Origin: a virus
DNA length: 20,693 bases
Strand: one strand, 5' to 3'
Virus record (IMG/VR): IMGVR_UViG_3300009502_000242
Span: 1 to 20,693 of that record
In this document: piece by piece, positions 7,004 to 19,371 of the stretch
Layout of the letters: each line of letters opens with the position of its first letter
How positions within the stretch are numbered: the first letter of the stretch is position 1
Made by a program: the position numbers and the translations under genes
Notes under the pieces: model-generated
What the model was told of the DNA's origin: nothing
Database searches by the model: none
What the model saw: the letters and a program-made list of their open reading frames with translations, nothing else

Positions 7004-8317
7004 ATGTTAGTTTTAGTAATAGATCCAAGCGCACTATGTTTAGACTTTTGTTTACGCAGTATTGCTGCTGGTCATACTGTTAAATGGTACACAAAAGGTT
7101 CAAGATCGGCTCACATCGGTGAGGGACTAGTGGATAAAGTATCCAACTGGCGTCCTTATATGAAAGTGGCCGATCTTATTTTTTCGGCTGATAATCTTGA
7201 GTTTATGGATGAAATCGATGATTTTATTAAAAAAGGTTATCCAGTATTTGGTCCAGGTAAACGTGCTGCTAAATTAGAACTTGACCGTATGTATGGTCAA
7301 AAAGTAATCGAAGAGTTTGGTGGAGAGATCATTCCATCATATCCTTTTAGTACATATGACGCTGCTATCAATTACGTCAAACAAAACGGTGGTCGTTGGG
7401 TATCTAAACCAATTGGTGCAGAAGAAAACAAAGCGTTATCATATGTAGCAAAAGATGAAGCAGATATGATTGGTTTTCTAACAAAACAAAAAGAATCTTC
7501 TAAAAGTTCTTCACAATTTATTCTACAAGAATTCAGAAAAGGCATCGAGATTGCTGTAACAGGTATATTTGGTCCCGCAGGCTGGATGCCTTTTTGGGCA
7601 GAAGGGTTTGAATTCAAGAAACACATGAATAATGATCTTGGTGTTAATACGGGTGAAATGGGTACTGTTATTCGTTACACAAGAGAATCAAAATTGGCTG
7701 ATATATTGATGAAGCCAATGGAAGAAACACTGCACAAGATTGGTTACGTTGGTATGCTAGATATGAATGTAATCGTAGACGAAAAGACAGGTGTACCCTA
7801 TCCAATGGAATGGACTGCACGACCTGGTTATCCAATGTGGAATATTCAACAACCATTACACAAAAATGAATGTCCTGTTGAGTGGATGTTAGATTGTGTT
7901 AAAGGTAAAAATACTTTAGAAATAGAAGAAAAGACTTGTGTTGGTGTTGTAATGGCTAACTCAGACTTTCCTTTTAATAAATTTGATGAACAATCATACT
8001 TAGATTTCCCTGTATTGGCTGATGGTGCTGACTACAAACATCTACATCCATGTGAAATGAAATTGTCTAAAACAATTAAGATGATGGACGGTAAGATGGT
8101 TGAGAATGTACCTGAATGGGGTACAGCAGGTTCATATATCATCGTTTGTACTGGTGTTGGTGATTCTGTATCAGAAGCCAAAGATAAAGCATACAAACAA
8201 GTTGACAAAGTTAAATTCGGTAATGATGAACATCACCGCACAGATATTGGTGATCGTTGTGAGAAAGCACTTGGTAAACTACATAAATTAGGATTTTGTA
8301 AGGGTTGGACATATTGA
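7004..8317 (+). CDS. ATP-grasp ligase resembling PurD (phosphoribosylamine-glycine ligase)
   Basis: 437 residues, close to the length of bacterial PurD. The N-terminal third resembles the PurD pre-ATP-grasp fold but begins VLVIDPSALCLDFCLRSI and lacks the usual GxGGREH loop. The ATP-grasp part is clear: GPGKRAAKLELDRMYGQKVIEEFG, then WVSKPIG, then LQEFRKGIEIAVTGIF, and a metal-site segment PMEWTARPGYP. Canonical PurD joins phosphoribosylamine and glycine in purine synthesis, which would fit a phage that boosts nucleotide supply. Loss of the N-terminal glycine-rich loop leaves the true substrate open. It stands alone after a small-gene run, and its stop codon overlaps the -35 box of the next promoter. 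Confidence 0.75.
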   Translation: MLVLVIDPSALCLDFCLRSIAAGHTVKWYTKGSRSAHIGEGLVDKVSNWRPYMKVADLIFSADNLEFMDEIDDFIKKGYPVFGPGKRAAKLELDRMYGQKVIEEFGGEIIPSYPFSTYDAAINYVKQNGGRWVSKPIGAEENKALSYVAKDEADMIGFLTKQKESSKSSSQFILQEFRKGIEIAVTGIFGPAGWMPFWAEGFEFKKHMNNDLGVNTGEMGTVIRYTRESKLADILMKPMEETLHKIGYVGMLDMNVIVDEKTGVPYPMEWTARPGYPMWNIQQPLHKNECPVEWMLDCVKGKNTLEIEEKTCVGVVMANSDFPFNKFDEQSYLDFPVLADGADYKHLHPCEMKLSKTIKMMDGKMVENVPEWGTAGSYIIVCTGVGDSVSEAKDKAYKQVDKVKFGNDEHHRTDIGDRCEKALGKLHKLGFCKGWTY

Positions 8318-10168: not shown

Positions 10169-10830
10169 AAACTTTTAATTACTGTACACCCAAAAATATT
10201 GCAGATATACAATCAACAACATTTCCCGATGGTAAACGTTTTTACGTATTAGAAGATGGAACAAAATTACCCTCAGTCACCACGGTGTTGGGTGCTCAGA
10301 AGAAACAATCCATTATGGAATGGCGCAGACGAGTGGGTGAAGTAGAAGCTGATAAGATATCAAGAAAAGCATCTAGTCGTGGAACTAATGTTCATACAAT
10401 TTGTGAAAAATATTTGAATAATGAATTGCATTATATGAATGGTATTATGCCTGATGCCGTTGAGTTCTTCCTTAGTATAAAACCATATTTGAACAATATA
10501 AATAATATTCACTATCAAGAAAAGGCATTATGGTCTAAACAATTAGGTGTAGCTGGTCGAGTTGATTGTATAGCAGAATATGAAGGTGTACTATCTGTTA
10601 TAGACTTTAAGACTTCCAGTAGACCAAAGAATCGTGAAGATATTCTAGATTATTTTTGGCAATGTTGTGCTTATTCACTTTGTTATGAAGAAATGATAGG
10701 AACTCCAATTGATGATTTAGTTATTATTATGGCTGTAGCAGATTCACCACCACTTATTTTCAAAGAAAGGGTGTCAGATCATATTGTTGGTTTGGTTGAA
10801 GCAATTAATTTTTACAGGAAACAAAAATGA
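10165..10830 (+). CDS. PD-(D/E)XK superfamily nuclease
   Basis: 221 residues. Early PSVTTVLG (about residues 36-43) and RGTNVHTICEKYL (H77, E81) precede the catalytic core GRVDCIAEY (D134) and VIDFKTSSRPK (D147, K149), followed by a helix YFWQCCAYSLCYEE. This is the RecB/Cas4-like exonuclease layout and is common in T4-like phages, where it is taken to act in DNA recombination or host DNA breakdown. ATGA overlaps with both neighbours show a tight three-gene operon phoH - nuclease - secreted nuclease. Confidence 0.8.
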   Translation: MKTFNYCTPKNIADIQSTTFPDGKRFYVLEDGTKLPSVTTVLGAQKKQSIMEWRRRVGEVEADKISRKASSRGTNVHTICEKYLNNELHYMNGIMPDAVEFFLSIKPYLNNINNIHYQEKALWSKQLGVAGRVDCIAEYEGVLSVIDFKTSSRPKNREDILDYFWQCCAYSLCYEEMIGTPIDDLVIIMAVADSPPLIFKERVSDHIVGLVEAINFYRKQK

Positions 10831-11468
10831 AAAAACTATTATTAGCGTTACTATTTGTATGTAATTCAGTATTGGCTTCAGGCTGTGTTGATTTATATCC
10901 AGAATCTAAACCAATTGAAGTTAAGAATACAGTAGAACTTTGTAATTCTTTTTATGTGTCTTTATTTGATAAAGAGCATAATAGAGTTATTCTTGTTGCA
11001 GAACATTTAAAACACGTCGGTATTGGTTCAGTTAAAAGAACTAATGATTTTCACCCAGATGACAGAATCGGTAAACACCCAAACACTACGGATTATTCAA
11101 ATACTGGCTATGATCGTGGCCACATGGCTCCTGCAGCAGATGCATCAAATGACAAAGAGATGCATGAAACATTCTTAATGTCTAATATGTCCCCGCAGCG
11201 GCCAATGCTCAATCGAGTTAGTTGGAAGGTTCTTGAGGAGAGTGTGAGATCATCATTTAACAAAACTAAATCTGACATGTACATTATCACGATTGCGGTG
11301 TATGATAGTGATGAAAAAATGGGTAGTATTCCAGTTCCAACTGCTTACTGGAAGATCGTCATTGTAGACTCTGTAACGCATTATTATTACGCAGTCAATA
11401 AAGACTATGCTGTAGTAGAAGAACGCTCTCCTATCGACATACAGAGCATCTTACCACTTGACAAATGA
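10827..11468 (+). CDS. Secreted DNA/RNA non-specific endonuclease (DRGH family)
   Basis: 213 residues. An N-terminal signal peptide (MKKLLLALLFVCNSVLA, then SGC) directs it to the periplasm or outside; the SGC could also make a weak lipobox. The catalytic block is YDRGHMAPAAD (H99) with N129 and E137 in MLNRVSWKVLEE. The N-to-E spacing of eight equals that of Serratia nuclease. The family cuts DNA and RNA with a metal ion. Export by signal peptide is unusual for a phage DNA-degrading enzyme and suggests attack on DNA in the periplasm or released by lysis. It is coupled to the preceding nuclease by ATGA. Confidence 0.85.
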   Translation: MKKLLLALLFVCNSVLASGCVDLYPESKPIEVKNTVELCNSFYVSLFDKEHNRVILVAEHLKHVGIGSVKRTNDFHPDDRIGKHPNTTDYSNTGYDRGHMAPAADASNDKEMHETFLMSNMSPQRPMLNRVSWKVLEESVRSSFNKTKSDMYIITIAVYDSDEKMGSIPVPTAYWKIVIVDSVTHYYYAVNKDYAVVEERSPIDIQSILPLDK

Positions 11469-11487
11469 TATATAAAGAGAGTATAAT

Positions 11488-11622
11488 ATGAAAATGAGAA
11501 AACTTATGAAGAAACTATATAAAGCGTGTGTTGAACATAACGCTGAAAGAGAAAAGAGATTTTGGTTAAAGGTATTGAAAAAATCTTTGAAGGGTAATAA
11601 AAAAACTAATGCAGTACAATAG
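11488..11622 (+). CDS. Small basic protein
   Basis: 44 residues (MKMRKLMKKLYKACVEHNAE ...), about one third lysine and arginine, with an AAAGAGAG ribosome site before the ATG. It may bind nucleic acid. Its last codons contain TACAAT (11615-11620), which could serve as the -10 box for the RNA locus that starts directly after it. No family recognised. Confidence 0.5.
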   Translation: MKMRKLMKKLYKACVEHNAEREKRFWLKVLKKSLKGNKKTNAVQ

Positions 11623-11633
11623 AATTCGTTGAA

Positions 11634-11684
11634 GGTATAGTAGTGACGGACAGGACGGGAGGTGACTGCTCCCCAGGTCCACCA
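11634..11684 (+). ncRNA. tmRNA acceptor piece (3' half, encoded first)
   Basis: A T-arm with exact tRNA geometry: stem GGGAG (11657-11661) with CTCCC (11669-11673), seven-base loop GTGACTG, joined without a gap to the acceptor strand CAGGTCC (11674-11680) and ACCA (11681-11684). The upstream part supplies the P2 strand GGTAT (11634-11638). The T-loop lacks the usual TTCRA consensus, which is odd and should be noted. Confidence 0.82.
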
Positions 11685-11756
11685 TAAAGTATATTGACCC
11701 GATAAGACACTCTAAAGTCTGAACTGGGAAAACTGCATATTAATATACTTTATAAT
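11685..11756 (+). other. tmRNA intervening loop removed during maturation
   Basis: Its ends are complementary: TAAAGTATATT (11685-11695) pairs perfectly with AATATACTTTA (11742-11752), stacking next to the acceptor stem so that the precursor is one long hairpin. Inside, CCC (11698-11700) with GGG and AGAC (11705-11708) with GTCT (11717-11720) make a smaller stem. Removal by tRNA-type processing would expose the CCA end and the 5' G. Permuted tmRNA precursors in bacteria have such a spacer. Confidence 0.75.
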
Positions 11757-11940
11757 GGGCCTGAATAATGTCGTATCGACTGACGGAACAATGATACCGG
11801 AGAATCGTGAAGCACTCACGTAAAATAGCGCAAAAAAACGTAAATGCAAACGATAACGCATTTTCTGTAGATAATCGCCTAGCGGCTTAATCTCAGTGGG
11901 GTTTCACCAACTGTCCTTATAATTCAATCAGTTGGTATTT
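11757..11940 (+). ncRNA. tmRNA coding piece (5' half, encoded second)
   Basis: It starts with acceptor strand GGGCCTG, then the D-loop-like region. A stem CGTGA/TCACG (11806-11810 with 11816-11820) stands in the place of pseudoknot PK1. The single-stranded run CGTAAAATAGCGCAAA resembles the segment before the resume codon in enterobacterial tmRNA. The tag is at 11846-11890. Part of it folds as GCC-TAGC-GGC, as expected for helix P5. Near the end ACCAACTG (11906-11913) pairs with CAGTTGGT (11929-11936), which could be a further hairpin or the 3' border. Confidence 0.8.
11846..11890 (+). other. tmRNA proteolysis-tag reading frame (ANDNAFSVDNRLAA)
   Basis: Fourteen codons plus TAA, translating to ANDNAFSVDNRLAA. 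It begins AND like proteobacterial tags and ends LAA, the ClpXP recognition end. It is four residues longer than the ten-residue tag of E. coli. The base four before the resume codon GCA is A, as in E. coli. Confidence 0.85.
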
Positions 11941-11982
11941 CAGAAACGAAGTAATTCGTTAAGGTTTTGATAATTTTCCTTA

Positions 11983-12020: not shown

Positions 12021-12467
12021 ATGAAGAAAGTACTTTTGATTGCAACACTATTGGCAGCATTTAATGCATCTGCTGTTGAACTTGGTGTTAATGGCGGTGG
12101 AATTTCCGGTAGCACATCTGGCGGTCTTGCTGGTGTAACTGTCGGTGAGAAATTCGGTAAGTTTGGTGTTGAAGGTGGTTATGGCCAAGCATGGTTGAAT
12201 GGATCAACTCAAAATCGTTGGACTCTTGTTGGTTCATATGATGTATACACTACAGAAAAATTTGTAGTTGCAGGTAAAGTTGGTTACGCATATTTGAATA
12301 ACCAAAGTGCAACAAGCGGATCAGCAGCAACCGTTGGTCTTGGAGTTACTGTACCATTCAATGAGAATTGGGCAGGCACTGTAGACTACGCTTATCAAAT
12401 GGTTGCATCTGGTGTTACTCAATTTAACGGCAACGTTATTACTGCTGGTATCAAATATAAGTTTTAA
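12021..12467 (+). CDS. Phage-encoded outer-membrane beta-barrel protein
   Basis: 148 residues. A clear signal peptide, MKKVLLIATLLAAFNASA, is cleaved before V19. The mature part is glycine-rich alternating strands (GVTVGEKFGKFGVEGGYGQ, then WTLVGSYDVYTTEKFVVAG, then AAVGLGV-like segments) and ends GIKYKF. The terminal phenylalanine is the BAM recognition signal. About eight strands fit an OmpX/OmpA-like small barrel. Phage-encoded surface proteins can change host adsorption or block superinfection; that role is inference. A strong AGGAG ribosome site precedes it, and it lies directly after the tmRNA. Confidence 0.8.
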   Translation: MKKVLLIATLLAAFNASAVELGVNGGGISGSTSGGLAGVTVGEKFGKFGVEGGYGQAWLNGSTQNRWTLVGSYDVYTTEKFVVAGKVGYAYLNNQSATSGSAATVGLGVTVPFNENWAGTVDYAYQMVASGVTQFNGNVITAGIKYKF

Positions 12468-17439: not shown

Positions 17440-19371
17440 TTAACTCGTTATAGTTGTGACTGGCATTACAAATTTAGGAATCAAAGGGTGATCAGAAAGT
17501 GATCCAGCAGTTAATGTTTGAGGTTTAGCCTGGGATCCAACTACATTATTTGTAGGATTATTCATCGAAACTAGTTTTGGTTTTTTGATCAAATCACGAT
17601 TTTCATTTGATGCAGATGAAACTCTGCTTCCTGAGTCTGCTGTAGCAACTTCAGACATTTGTCCAGCCGGGCCGACAGGACTAATATTTGATAATTTAAT
17701 GTTATCTGGGTTCTGGGCTTTACCATTTTTGTTGATTTGATAATGTAAATGGTTACCGGTACTTTTCCCTGTGCTACCAACTTCACCTATTTTTTGACCA
17801 GCCTTTACAGTATCACCAGCCTTAACACCTATAGCAGATAAGTGTCCATATATTGTAACAATACCGTCACCATGATCAATCTGTATATGTGATCCATATC
17901 CATTACCTGTATCACTAGCCAATAATACAGTTCCATCTGCGGTTGCATTGACTTGTGTGCCTTTAGGTGCAGCAATATCAATACCAGGATGATCTTCTTG
18001 TTTTCCGTTTAATGTCCGTGAACCGAAACCACTTGTAATTGTTCCCGATCCTGCTAGTGTTGCTGACGGTGTACTTGCAACCGAGTTAACATCTACTTCT
18101 TCAAAATTAAAACCACCCTTTTTTAAACTAGATTTATATTCACCTACCGTCTGTGAAGCAATACTTGCATTTGCTCTTTTTTGTGGAGAACTCATTAAAC
18201 TCCCCATTTTCACATCATCGTTTGCATTTAGTATTGCTTTGACTGTTTCTATTCCTTTTCCAGTTCCAAGGAAATGAGCCATATATAGACTAGCATCTGT
18301 AACAGGTATACCTGCTCTTTTTAAACTATCAGATTCAGTATCAACCATAGCATTCATTAATAATTCTTGATTTTCTTCTGAGAATTTTTCTTTTCCAAAC
18401 TCTTTACCAAATGCTTTTAATCCCATGTCTCGTAAAGTACCAGGCATGAATTGATACTTTCCTGCCGCGGCCCCTGCACCACTCTGTTTAAAATGTGCCG
18501 ATCTTTTTTCTGATAAGGAAATAACCTCATCAATTGTTAAATCTGTAAGATTCTTTTGATAACTTTTTCCATTAATATCTTTGTTTCCAACAGTCACTAT
18601 ATTTGATTCGGTTTCACCTGCAACACGATTCATTATATTATAAGAGTTATCGGATTCTCTTCCTGATATTTTTGTTTTCAAATCATCTTTTGTTGAAGAT
18701 GGCATTGATGATAATTTTGGTACTTGTGTTGTTGTTGGTGGATTAGATTCTGGAGTAGTTCCAGATGGTTTTCCCGAAGAGTTTGGTTCTCCTGATGGAA
18801 TCATAGAACCTATACCTACACCAGCAGCTATACCTCCACCAACAATAGCTGCTTTCTTTGCAAATCCTTTTTTTCCTGCACCCTTATCAGTTACTTTAGG
18901 TACTTTTGAATTTGTACTAGAATACTTTTTAGTTTGTTTGGTTTCAGGTTTTATAGATTTCGTTTCTGTTTTGTCGTCAAAAGAACCAATTATATCTTGA
19001 TATTGTCTTTTTGTTTCTTGTGAACGTTCTTTTTCAAAATTCCTATCTAATTCAAATCTTTTAGTATTTTCTTTTTCATTTTTATCAAACAATCCATATA
19101 TTTTTGTAGCAACTGTAGCTACATTATCACCAACACGAACATTCTGTGTGGTGTCTAATGTAACTGTTGTGAAGAAGTTTTTATCATCGGAAACAGGTGA
19201 TTCTTTTTTTGTCTTCTGACCAAAGTAATCAGAAAATTTAGATTCAACAGGAGATTGTTTTTCTTTAGATAAACTACCAGATATTTTTTCTGGAGAAAAC
19301 ATTCCCATAATGTTGGTCGTTGTAGACTCCATTTCATTTGATACGATTTGTTTGTTTTTTGGATTAGCCAT
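17440..19371 (-). CDS. Tail-associated dual peptidoglycan hydrolase (lysozyme-like + M23 peptidase)
   Basis: 643 residues. About 75-130: module VRVGDNVATVATKIYGLF plus coiled coil, shared with the 15157 protein. About 172-192: a glycine-rich hydrophobic helix. About 233-400: lysozyme/transglycosylase-like domain with SGRESDNSYNIMN (likely catalytic E239) and AAAGKYQFMPGTLRDMG. About 441-555: M23 LytM-type endopeptidase with HPGID (H461, D465), YGH (H510) and HLH (541-543). One domain would cut glycan, the other peptide crosslinks, to open the wall for DNA entry. It lies in the leftward tail cluster after the gp26-like gene; in T4 the hub protein gp5 has only a lysozyme. The ATG overlaps the TAA before it by a few bases. 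Confidence 0.8.
   Translation of the reverse strand: MANPKNKQIVSNEMESTTTNIMGMFSPEKISGSLSKEKQSPVESKFSDYFGQKTKKESPVSDDKNFFTTVTLDTTQNVRVGDNVATVATKIYGLFDKNEKENTKRFELDRNFEKERSQETKRQYQDIIGSFDDKTETKSIKPETKQTKKYSSTNSKVPKVTDKGAGKKGFAKKAAIVGGGIAAGVGIGSMIPSGEPNSSGKPSGTTPESNPPTTTQVPKLSSMPSSTKDDLKTKISGRESDNSYNIMNRVAGETESNIVTVGNKDINGKSYQKNLTDLTIDEVISLSEKRSAHFKQSGAGAAAGKYQFMPGTLRDMGLKAFGKEFGKEKFSEENQELLMNAMVDTESDSLKRAGIPVTDASLYMAHFLGTGKGIETVKAILNANDDVKMGSLMSSPQKRANASIASQTVGEYKSSLKKGGFNFEEVDVNSVASTPSATLAGSGTITSGFGSRTLNGKQEDHPGIDIAAPKGTQVNATADGTVLLASDTGNGYGSHIQIDHGDGIVTIYGHLSAIGVKAGDTVKAGQKIGEVGSTGKSTGNHLHYQINKNGKAQNPDNIKLSNISPVGPAGQMSEVATADSGSRVSSASNENRDLIKKPKLVSMNNPTNNVVGSQAKPQTLTAGSLSDHPLIPKFVMPVTTITS

Follow-up and report, generated by a model that had tools for sequence, protein, structure and literature searches.

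The locus considered here raises the question of whether this phage carries a working tmRNA gene in which the acceptor half precedes the coding half, and from which lineage such a gene might have come. The window, meaning the whole stretch of DNA that was analysed, is a virus record of 20,693 bases with PHROGs matches to T4-like phage families (gp32-type SSB, PhoH, exonuclease, baseplate hub, and metallophosphoesterase), and we take the tmRNA carrier to be a T4-like phage. The gene is flanked upstream by a DNA/RNA non-specific endonuclease gene (10827-11468; PF01223, E 5.7e-39), and downstream by a small beta-barrel-like gene (12021-12467) with a weak Pfam match below cut-off. Two genes elsewhere in the window also deserve mention. 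A 437-aa ATP-grasp protein (7004-8317) resembles phosphoribosylglycinamide synthetase (PF01071, PF02843), has no PHROGs match, and is an unusual metabolic gene for a phage, while a 643-aa protein on the - strand (17440-19371) matches the M23 peptidase domain (PF01551, E 2.4e-34), seems on visual inspection to include a lysozyme-like stretch, and adjoins a baseplate hub gene.

Gene structure and family assignment

The contig holds a complete circularly permuted (two-piece) tmRNA gene at 11623-11942 on the + strand. The features of the region are listed below; L172, L239, and L240 are related contigs described later.

11458-11487, +: perfect sigma-70 consensus TTGACA-18-TATAAT, about 135 nt 5' of the tmRNA (consensus match only)
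11488-11622, +: 44-aa basic ORF (MKMRKLMKKLYK...NAVQ) between promoter and tmRNA, a neighbour outside the tmRNA
11623-11684, +: acceptor piece with P2-like strand, T-arm, acceptor 3' strand, and CCA (RF04321 match from 11624; L172 identity block from 11621)
11657-11673, +: T-arm, with a 5-bp stem (11657-11661/11669-11673) and the 7-nt loop GTGACTG (11662-11668), checked letter by letter; loop also in L172, L239, and L240
11674-11680, +: acceptor 3' strand CAGGTCC (U70), followed by A73 at 11681 and CCA at 11682-11684 (RF04321 alignment and letter check)
11685-11756, +: intervening transcribed spacer of 72 nt, predicted to be removed on maturation; arms 11685-11697/11740-11752, 13 bp
11757-11763, +: acceptor 5' strand GGGCCTG, where the coding piece begins (RF04321 alignment and letter check)
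11764-11780, +: D-loop region AATAATGTCGTATCGAC, about 4 nt over the usual length, with GUCG replacing GG
11806-11820, +: hairpin CGTG/CACG of the coding piece, 5' of the tag (RF04321 alignment, letter check)
11846-11890, +: tag frame ANDNAFSVDNRLAA-stop, resume codon GCA (RF04321 alignment, letter check)
11898-11942, +: 3' tail of the coding piece, a predicted H-type pseudoknot (S1 11906-11913/11929-11936, S2 11898-11901/11914-11917)

An earlier note on this DNA had placed an acceptor half with T-arm and CCA upstream of the coding half, and its coordinates were confirmed letter by letter, as was the pairing it proposed between 11674-11680 and 11757-11763 (GGGCCTG/CAGGTCC), which comprises seven pairs including G3-U70. 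The junction of T-stem, loop, and acceptor stem is also as claimed there, with the T-arm directly adjoining 11674, and the tag frame said to end in LAA is indeed present, with a degron-type AA end before its stop. The note let the locus end at 11940, which is consistent with the predicted pseudoknot ending near 11942; S1 of this pseudoknot was obtained from folding, and S2 was drawn by hand on the basis of the tails of L172, L198, L242, and L244. From what is known of tmRNA maturation, an RNase P cut is predicted 5' of 11757. When 145 nt (11646-11790) were folded, the structure obtained contained the spacer helix along with the T-stem and acceptor stem; its energy was -46 kcal/mol (z = -4.3), and 0 of 200 shuffles did as well.

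The covariance search agreed with the family assignment made in the note, as the Rfam model tmRNA_permuted (RF04321) matched 11624-11890 (+) over its full length at 77.5 bits, against a cut-off of 47 bits (E 1.3e-13, computed for the whole window). The model beta_tmRNA (RF01850), which is now merged into RF04321 and was the only one of three older subtypes listed, overlapping matches of the same clan being suppressed, gave 25.1 bits and was missed at its cut-off of 84. A standard ssrA elsewhere in the phage, with this locus unconserved, had been named in advance as speaking against a permuted gene; the standard one-piece model (RF00023) reached 16.8 bits against a cut-off of 47, with nothing over the cut-off in the contig or in any of 14 related phage records, and relatives conserve the locus. 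A DNA similarity search of the locus against 50,697 phage records returned no match. Every test run on the sequence supports a phage-encoded circularly permuted tmRNA, the gene finder ARAGORN calling no tmRNA in the window, probably because the T-loop is GTGACTG and not TTCRANN.

The arms of the spacer pair directly 3' of CCA and up to 4 nt before G1, in a register that is the same in bacteria and phages. On average 7.1-7.5 of the first 8 arm positions are paired in bacteria and phages alike, compared with about 5 for arms taken from different loci and 2.4-4.4 for registers other than this one. The idea that this helix is special to the window gene was rejected, as it is common to bacteria and phages; it is a general feature of the sampled permuted genes, where it presumably keeps the precursor assembled so that it can be processed. 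The spacer core CCCGATAAGACACTCTAA is common to eight contigs, mostly with other T-arms.

As a separate observation, small ORFs with a Shine-Dalgarno-like site are nested in 17 of 40 spacers of at least 90 nt in related phage tmRNAs (L117, L016, L097, L010, L038, L035, L063, L127, L133, L228, and others), against an expectation of 1.7 by mononucleotide shuffles, with related loci counted separately. These ORFs form recurrent families, and one of them, a 156-aa ORF in the L117 spacer, matches an HNH endonuclease over cut-off (PF01844, E 1.9e-5). The 72-nt spacer of the window has no such ORF. Nested ORFs of this kind may be more unusual than the window tmRNA itself.

Proposed function

We favour, with a probability of about 0.82, a functional circularly permuted ssrA of a T4-like phage that would perform ordinary trans-translation during infection with the SmpB of the host. 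Anatomy, family membership, conservation, and the absence of SmpB in the records searched were computed directly, and we infer transcription, processing, charging, tagging, and benefit as follows. Transcription, probably starting at the consensus promoter (11458-11487), would yield a single precursor, in which the spacer helix would keep both acceptor strands together. Host tRNA-processing enzymes, including RNase P, would excise the spacer, and pairing in the acceptor stem and P2-like region would keep the two RNA pieces together. Host AlaRS would then charge the tmRNA via G3-U70, host SmpB and EF-Tu would bring it to stalled ribosomes, and translation would resume at the GCA at 11846, giving stalled proteins the tag ANDNAFSVDNRLAA, whose LAA end should direct them to ClpXP. 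The phage might benefit from the recycling of ribosomes during mRNA breakdown or from the clearing of host proteins, and similar roles for phage tmRNA were proposed in the report on phage Melnitz (PMC9004378). A gene for SmpB was found in 0 of 23 phage records searched, which are mostly fragments, and the phages may encode SmpB in parts that these do not contain.

The putative promoter is the sole perfect match in the window, where 0.02 would be expected by chance. It is absent at the tmRNA of the relatives L172 and L239, and is therefore not a conserved part of the locus. The 44-aa ORF that follows it may be untranslated, as the -10 box runs directly up to its start codon.

The T-loop and D-loop

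What is distinctive in the window copy is mainly its altered T-loop, GTGACTG, which departs from TTCRANN and is accompanied by a D-loop that is altered too (GUCG). Among 150 permuted tmRNAs gathered with a simple descriptor, TTC-type T-loops (67/150) are in every case combined with a GG D-loop and GC-type T-loops (80/150) in every case with AG or AGG, while in the window group (3/150) the T-loop GUG is paired with the D-loop GUCG. Given these fixed pairings, both loops change together, and, since 80 of the 150 depart from TTC, TTCRANN is not required in the permuted family. The T-loop and the D-loop core are invariant across the three variants of the window group; the contact that we propose between them is a drawing, which covariation cannot judge, as the loops do not vary.

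SmpB and EF-Tu read the T-loop and D-loop of tmRNA. With both loops off consensus, activity of the window tmRNA with host SmpB is therefore not assured. A tentative extension of the favoured reading, to which we give clearly less than even odds, is that of a phage-specific tmRNA with a rebuilt elbow, in which T-loop GUGACUG and D-loop GUCG would have changed together while the fold was kept, recognition by host SmpB or a regulator would be altered, and the RNA would move as a module with exchangeable tags. In such an elbow the G19-C56 contact could possibly have been swapped, or a short loop-loop helix formed.

The same non-canonical T- and D-loops could also be those of a decoy, namely an RNA that is charged or SmpB-bound, makes a poor substrate through its altered elbow, and by competing with host tmRNA slows host trans-translation. 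Phage DS6A reportedly has a tag-less RNA that acts as a decoy (PMC11915505). Such a role is unlikely here, however, given that a decoy would have no need of a tag, and yet the frames are intact, with the AA end and stop in all three variants (the window with ANDNAFSVDNRLAA, L172 with ANDESFALAA, and L239), and that many related phages have canonical T-loops.

Relatives of the gene and exchange of its parts

Besides a sister contig (L122/L217/L238) that is 99.97% identical to the window, the window T-arm was found in L172 (IMGVR_UViG_3300009159_001470), L239 (3300020151_002331), and L240 (3300020159_003235), making three sequence variants overall, as the tmRNA sequence shown is identical in L239 and L240. 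RF04321 is passed by L172 (83.1 bits) and by L239/L240 (86.9 bits). These relatives share with the window an identical T-arm, the D-loop GUCG, and a near-identical spacer core, and differ from it in their short tags (that of L172 among them) and in their tail. Their acceptor stems are also informative, being GGGCCTG/CAGGTCC in the window and L172 and GGGGCTG/CAGCTCC in L239/L240, a double change that turns C4-G69 into G4-C69 and keeps the pair. Because L239 and L240 were fetched by T-arm sequence only, this compensatory change is not an artefact of the search, and it is the best single sign in our data of an RNA that has been kept functional.

A 233-nt block (11621-11853) is 97.9% identical to L172, whereas neighbouring genes mostly show 67-76% DNA identity and PhoH 57% protein identity. 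The high identity is confined between the tmRNA 5' end and a point inside the tag, and the 3' tails differ. With such a block standing among far less similar neighbours, and with tag and tail exchanged, the tmRNA would move as a module, and modules seem to be exchanged between phages; the near-identity to L172 may reflect recent transfer rather than selection. In another pair of contigs, L244 (4502 bp) and L245 (6878 bp), the tRNA-like part and spacer are near-identical while tag and tail are different, and L244 retains part of the other tail, an arrangement that would result if a new tag-tail module were inserted before this remnant. Upstream of the tmRNA, L172 has a gene that matches GIY-YIG weakly (E 0.0011, not reaching cut-off); that this gene might aid movement of the module is speculation.

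A decaying copy caught after such a transfer would account for the window having the lowest score of the PhoH-related contigs above the RF04321 cut-off (77.5 versus up to 141 bits), for its divergent T-loop, and for the non-standard pairs that the RF04321 alignment places in its P2-like helices. We nonetheless hold a pseudogene to be very improbable, as the same T-loop recurs in the sister contig and three more contigs in three sequence variants, the acceptor change is compensatory, the tag frames are undamaged, and the identity to L172 over the 233 nt far exceeds that of the flanks.

Origin and distribution

With regard to origin, the earlier note had allowed for either a host with a permuted gene or an independent event. 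Descent from a permuted family of betaproteobacterial-like and phage genes is favoured over independent invention, the window group lying on a long branch. In a core tree from about 160 nt, printed without support values and not placing the window group, PhoH-related phage sequences are intermixed with betaproteobacterial ones and the window group falls outside the others. A 19-base coding-piece motif of related phage tmRNAs (GTAGGCGATGACYGTAAAT) occurs elsewhere almost only in Burkholderiales (Advenella, Pelistega, Taylorella, Brackiella). The GTGACTG T-arm was sought in 399 genomes from the bacterial order to which Advenella belongs and occurred in none, so that no host source of the T-loop emerged there. 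A strong permuted tmRNA (>120 bits) is carried by only 17 of these 399 genomes, and the host may therefore well use standard ssrA. The betaproteobacterial permuted tmRNA and that of the window are alike in having the acceptor/T-arm part with CCA upstream, a helix-bearing spacer, a coding piece with the tag, and a 3' terminal structure; the window copy differs in its T-loop GTGACTG, longer GUCG D-loop, phage location, and other tail module. The most economical reading of these sequences is that the gene descends from a permuted one of betaproteobacterial-like type that circulates among phages. A permutation of standard ssrA born independently in phages, for which the long branch could be invoked, is barely plausible when break point, spacer-helix register, and coding-piece anatomy are as in bacterial and other phage permuted tmRNAs and the spacer core is common to phages with canonical permuted tmRNAs.

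The earlier note had also called a phage with a permuted tmRNA striking, which is not supported, as phage-borne permuted tmRNA is already known and, being common in IMG/VR, is not rare. Methylophilales phage Melnitz was reported in 2022 to carry a two-piece tmRNA, and two-piece structures made up 53 of 133 unique phage tmRNAs, 50 of these 53 being from marine or aquatic phages (PMC9004378). The two-piece tmRNAs of Melnitz, pelagimyophages, and other phages resemble that of the window as permuted ssrA genes of T4-like aquatic phages with a tag frame. The Melnitz copy, unlike that of the window, was grouped with Alphaproteobacteria/SAR11 and associated with a glutamine riboswitch (PMC9004378); no Rfam riboswitch reached cut-off in the window. 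A pattern from the resume region matched at least 120 stretches in IMG/VR, and all 50 examined passed RF04321, as did 27 of 50 contigs that encode a protein related to the window PhoH. No permuted tmRNA occurs in Variovorax phage V45v66, whose PhoH ranked nearest among the listed matches from phage isolates with Burkholderiales hosts.

We also came across an unannotated permuted tmRNA in Stenotrophomonas phage vB_SmaS-DLP_6 (KU682439.2, 102838-103059; L247/L259; RF04321 136.8 bits), whose gammaproteobacterial host group presumably uses standard ssrA. It is like the window copy in gene plan and spacer helix, but its T-loop is the canonical TTCGATT and its sequence is not close.

To the known phage two-piece tmRNAs the window adds a divergent lineage. 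It shows that the plan of a phage tmRNA can be retained when the T-loop/D-loop elbow has changed, and that near-identical phage tmRNAs exchange tag and tail. What a phage gains from a tagging RNA of its own, and whether the sequence of the tag or the elbow matters, thereby become questions that can be tested.
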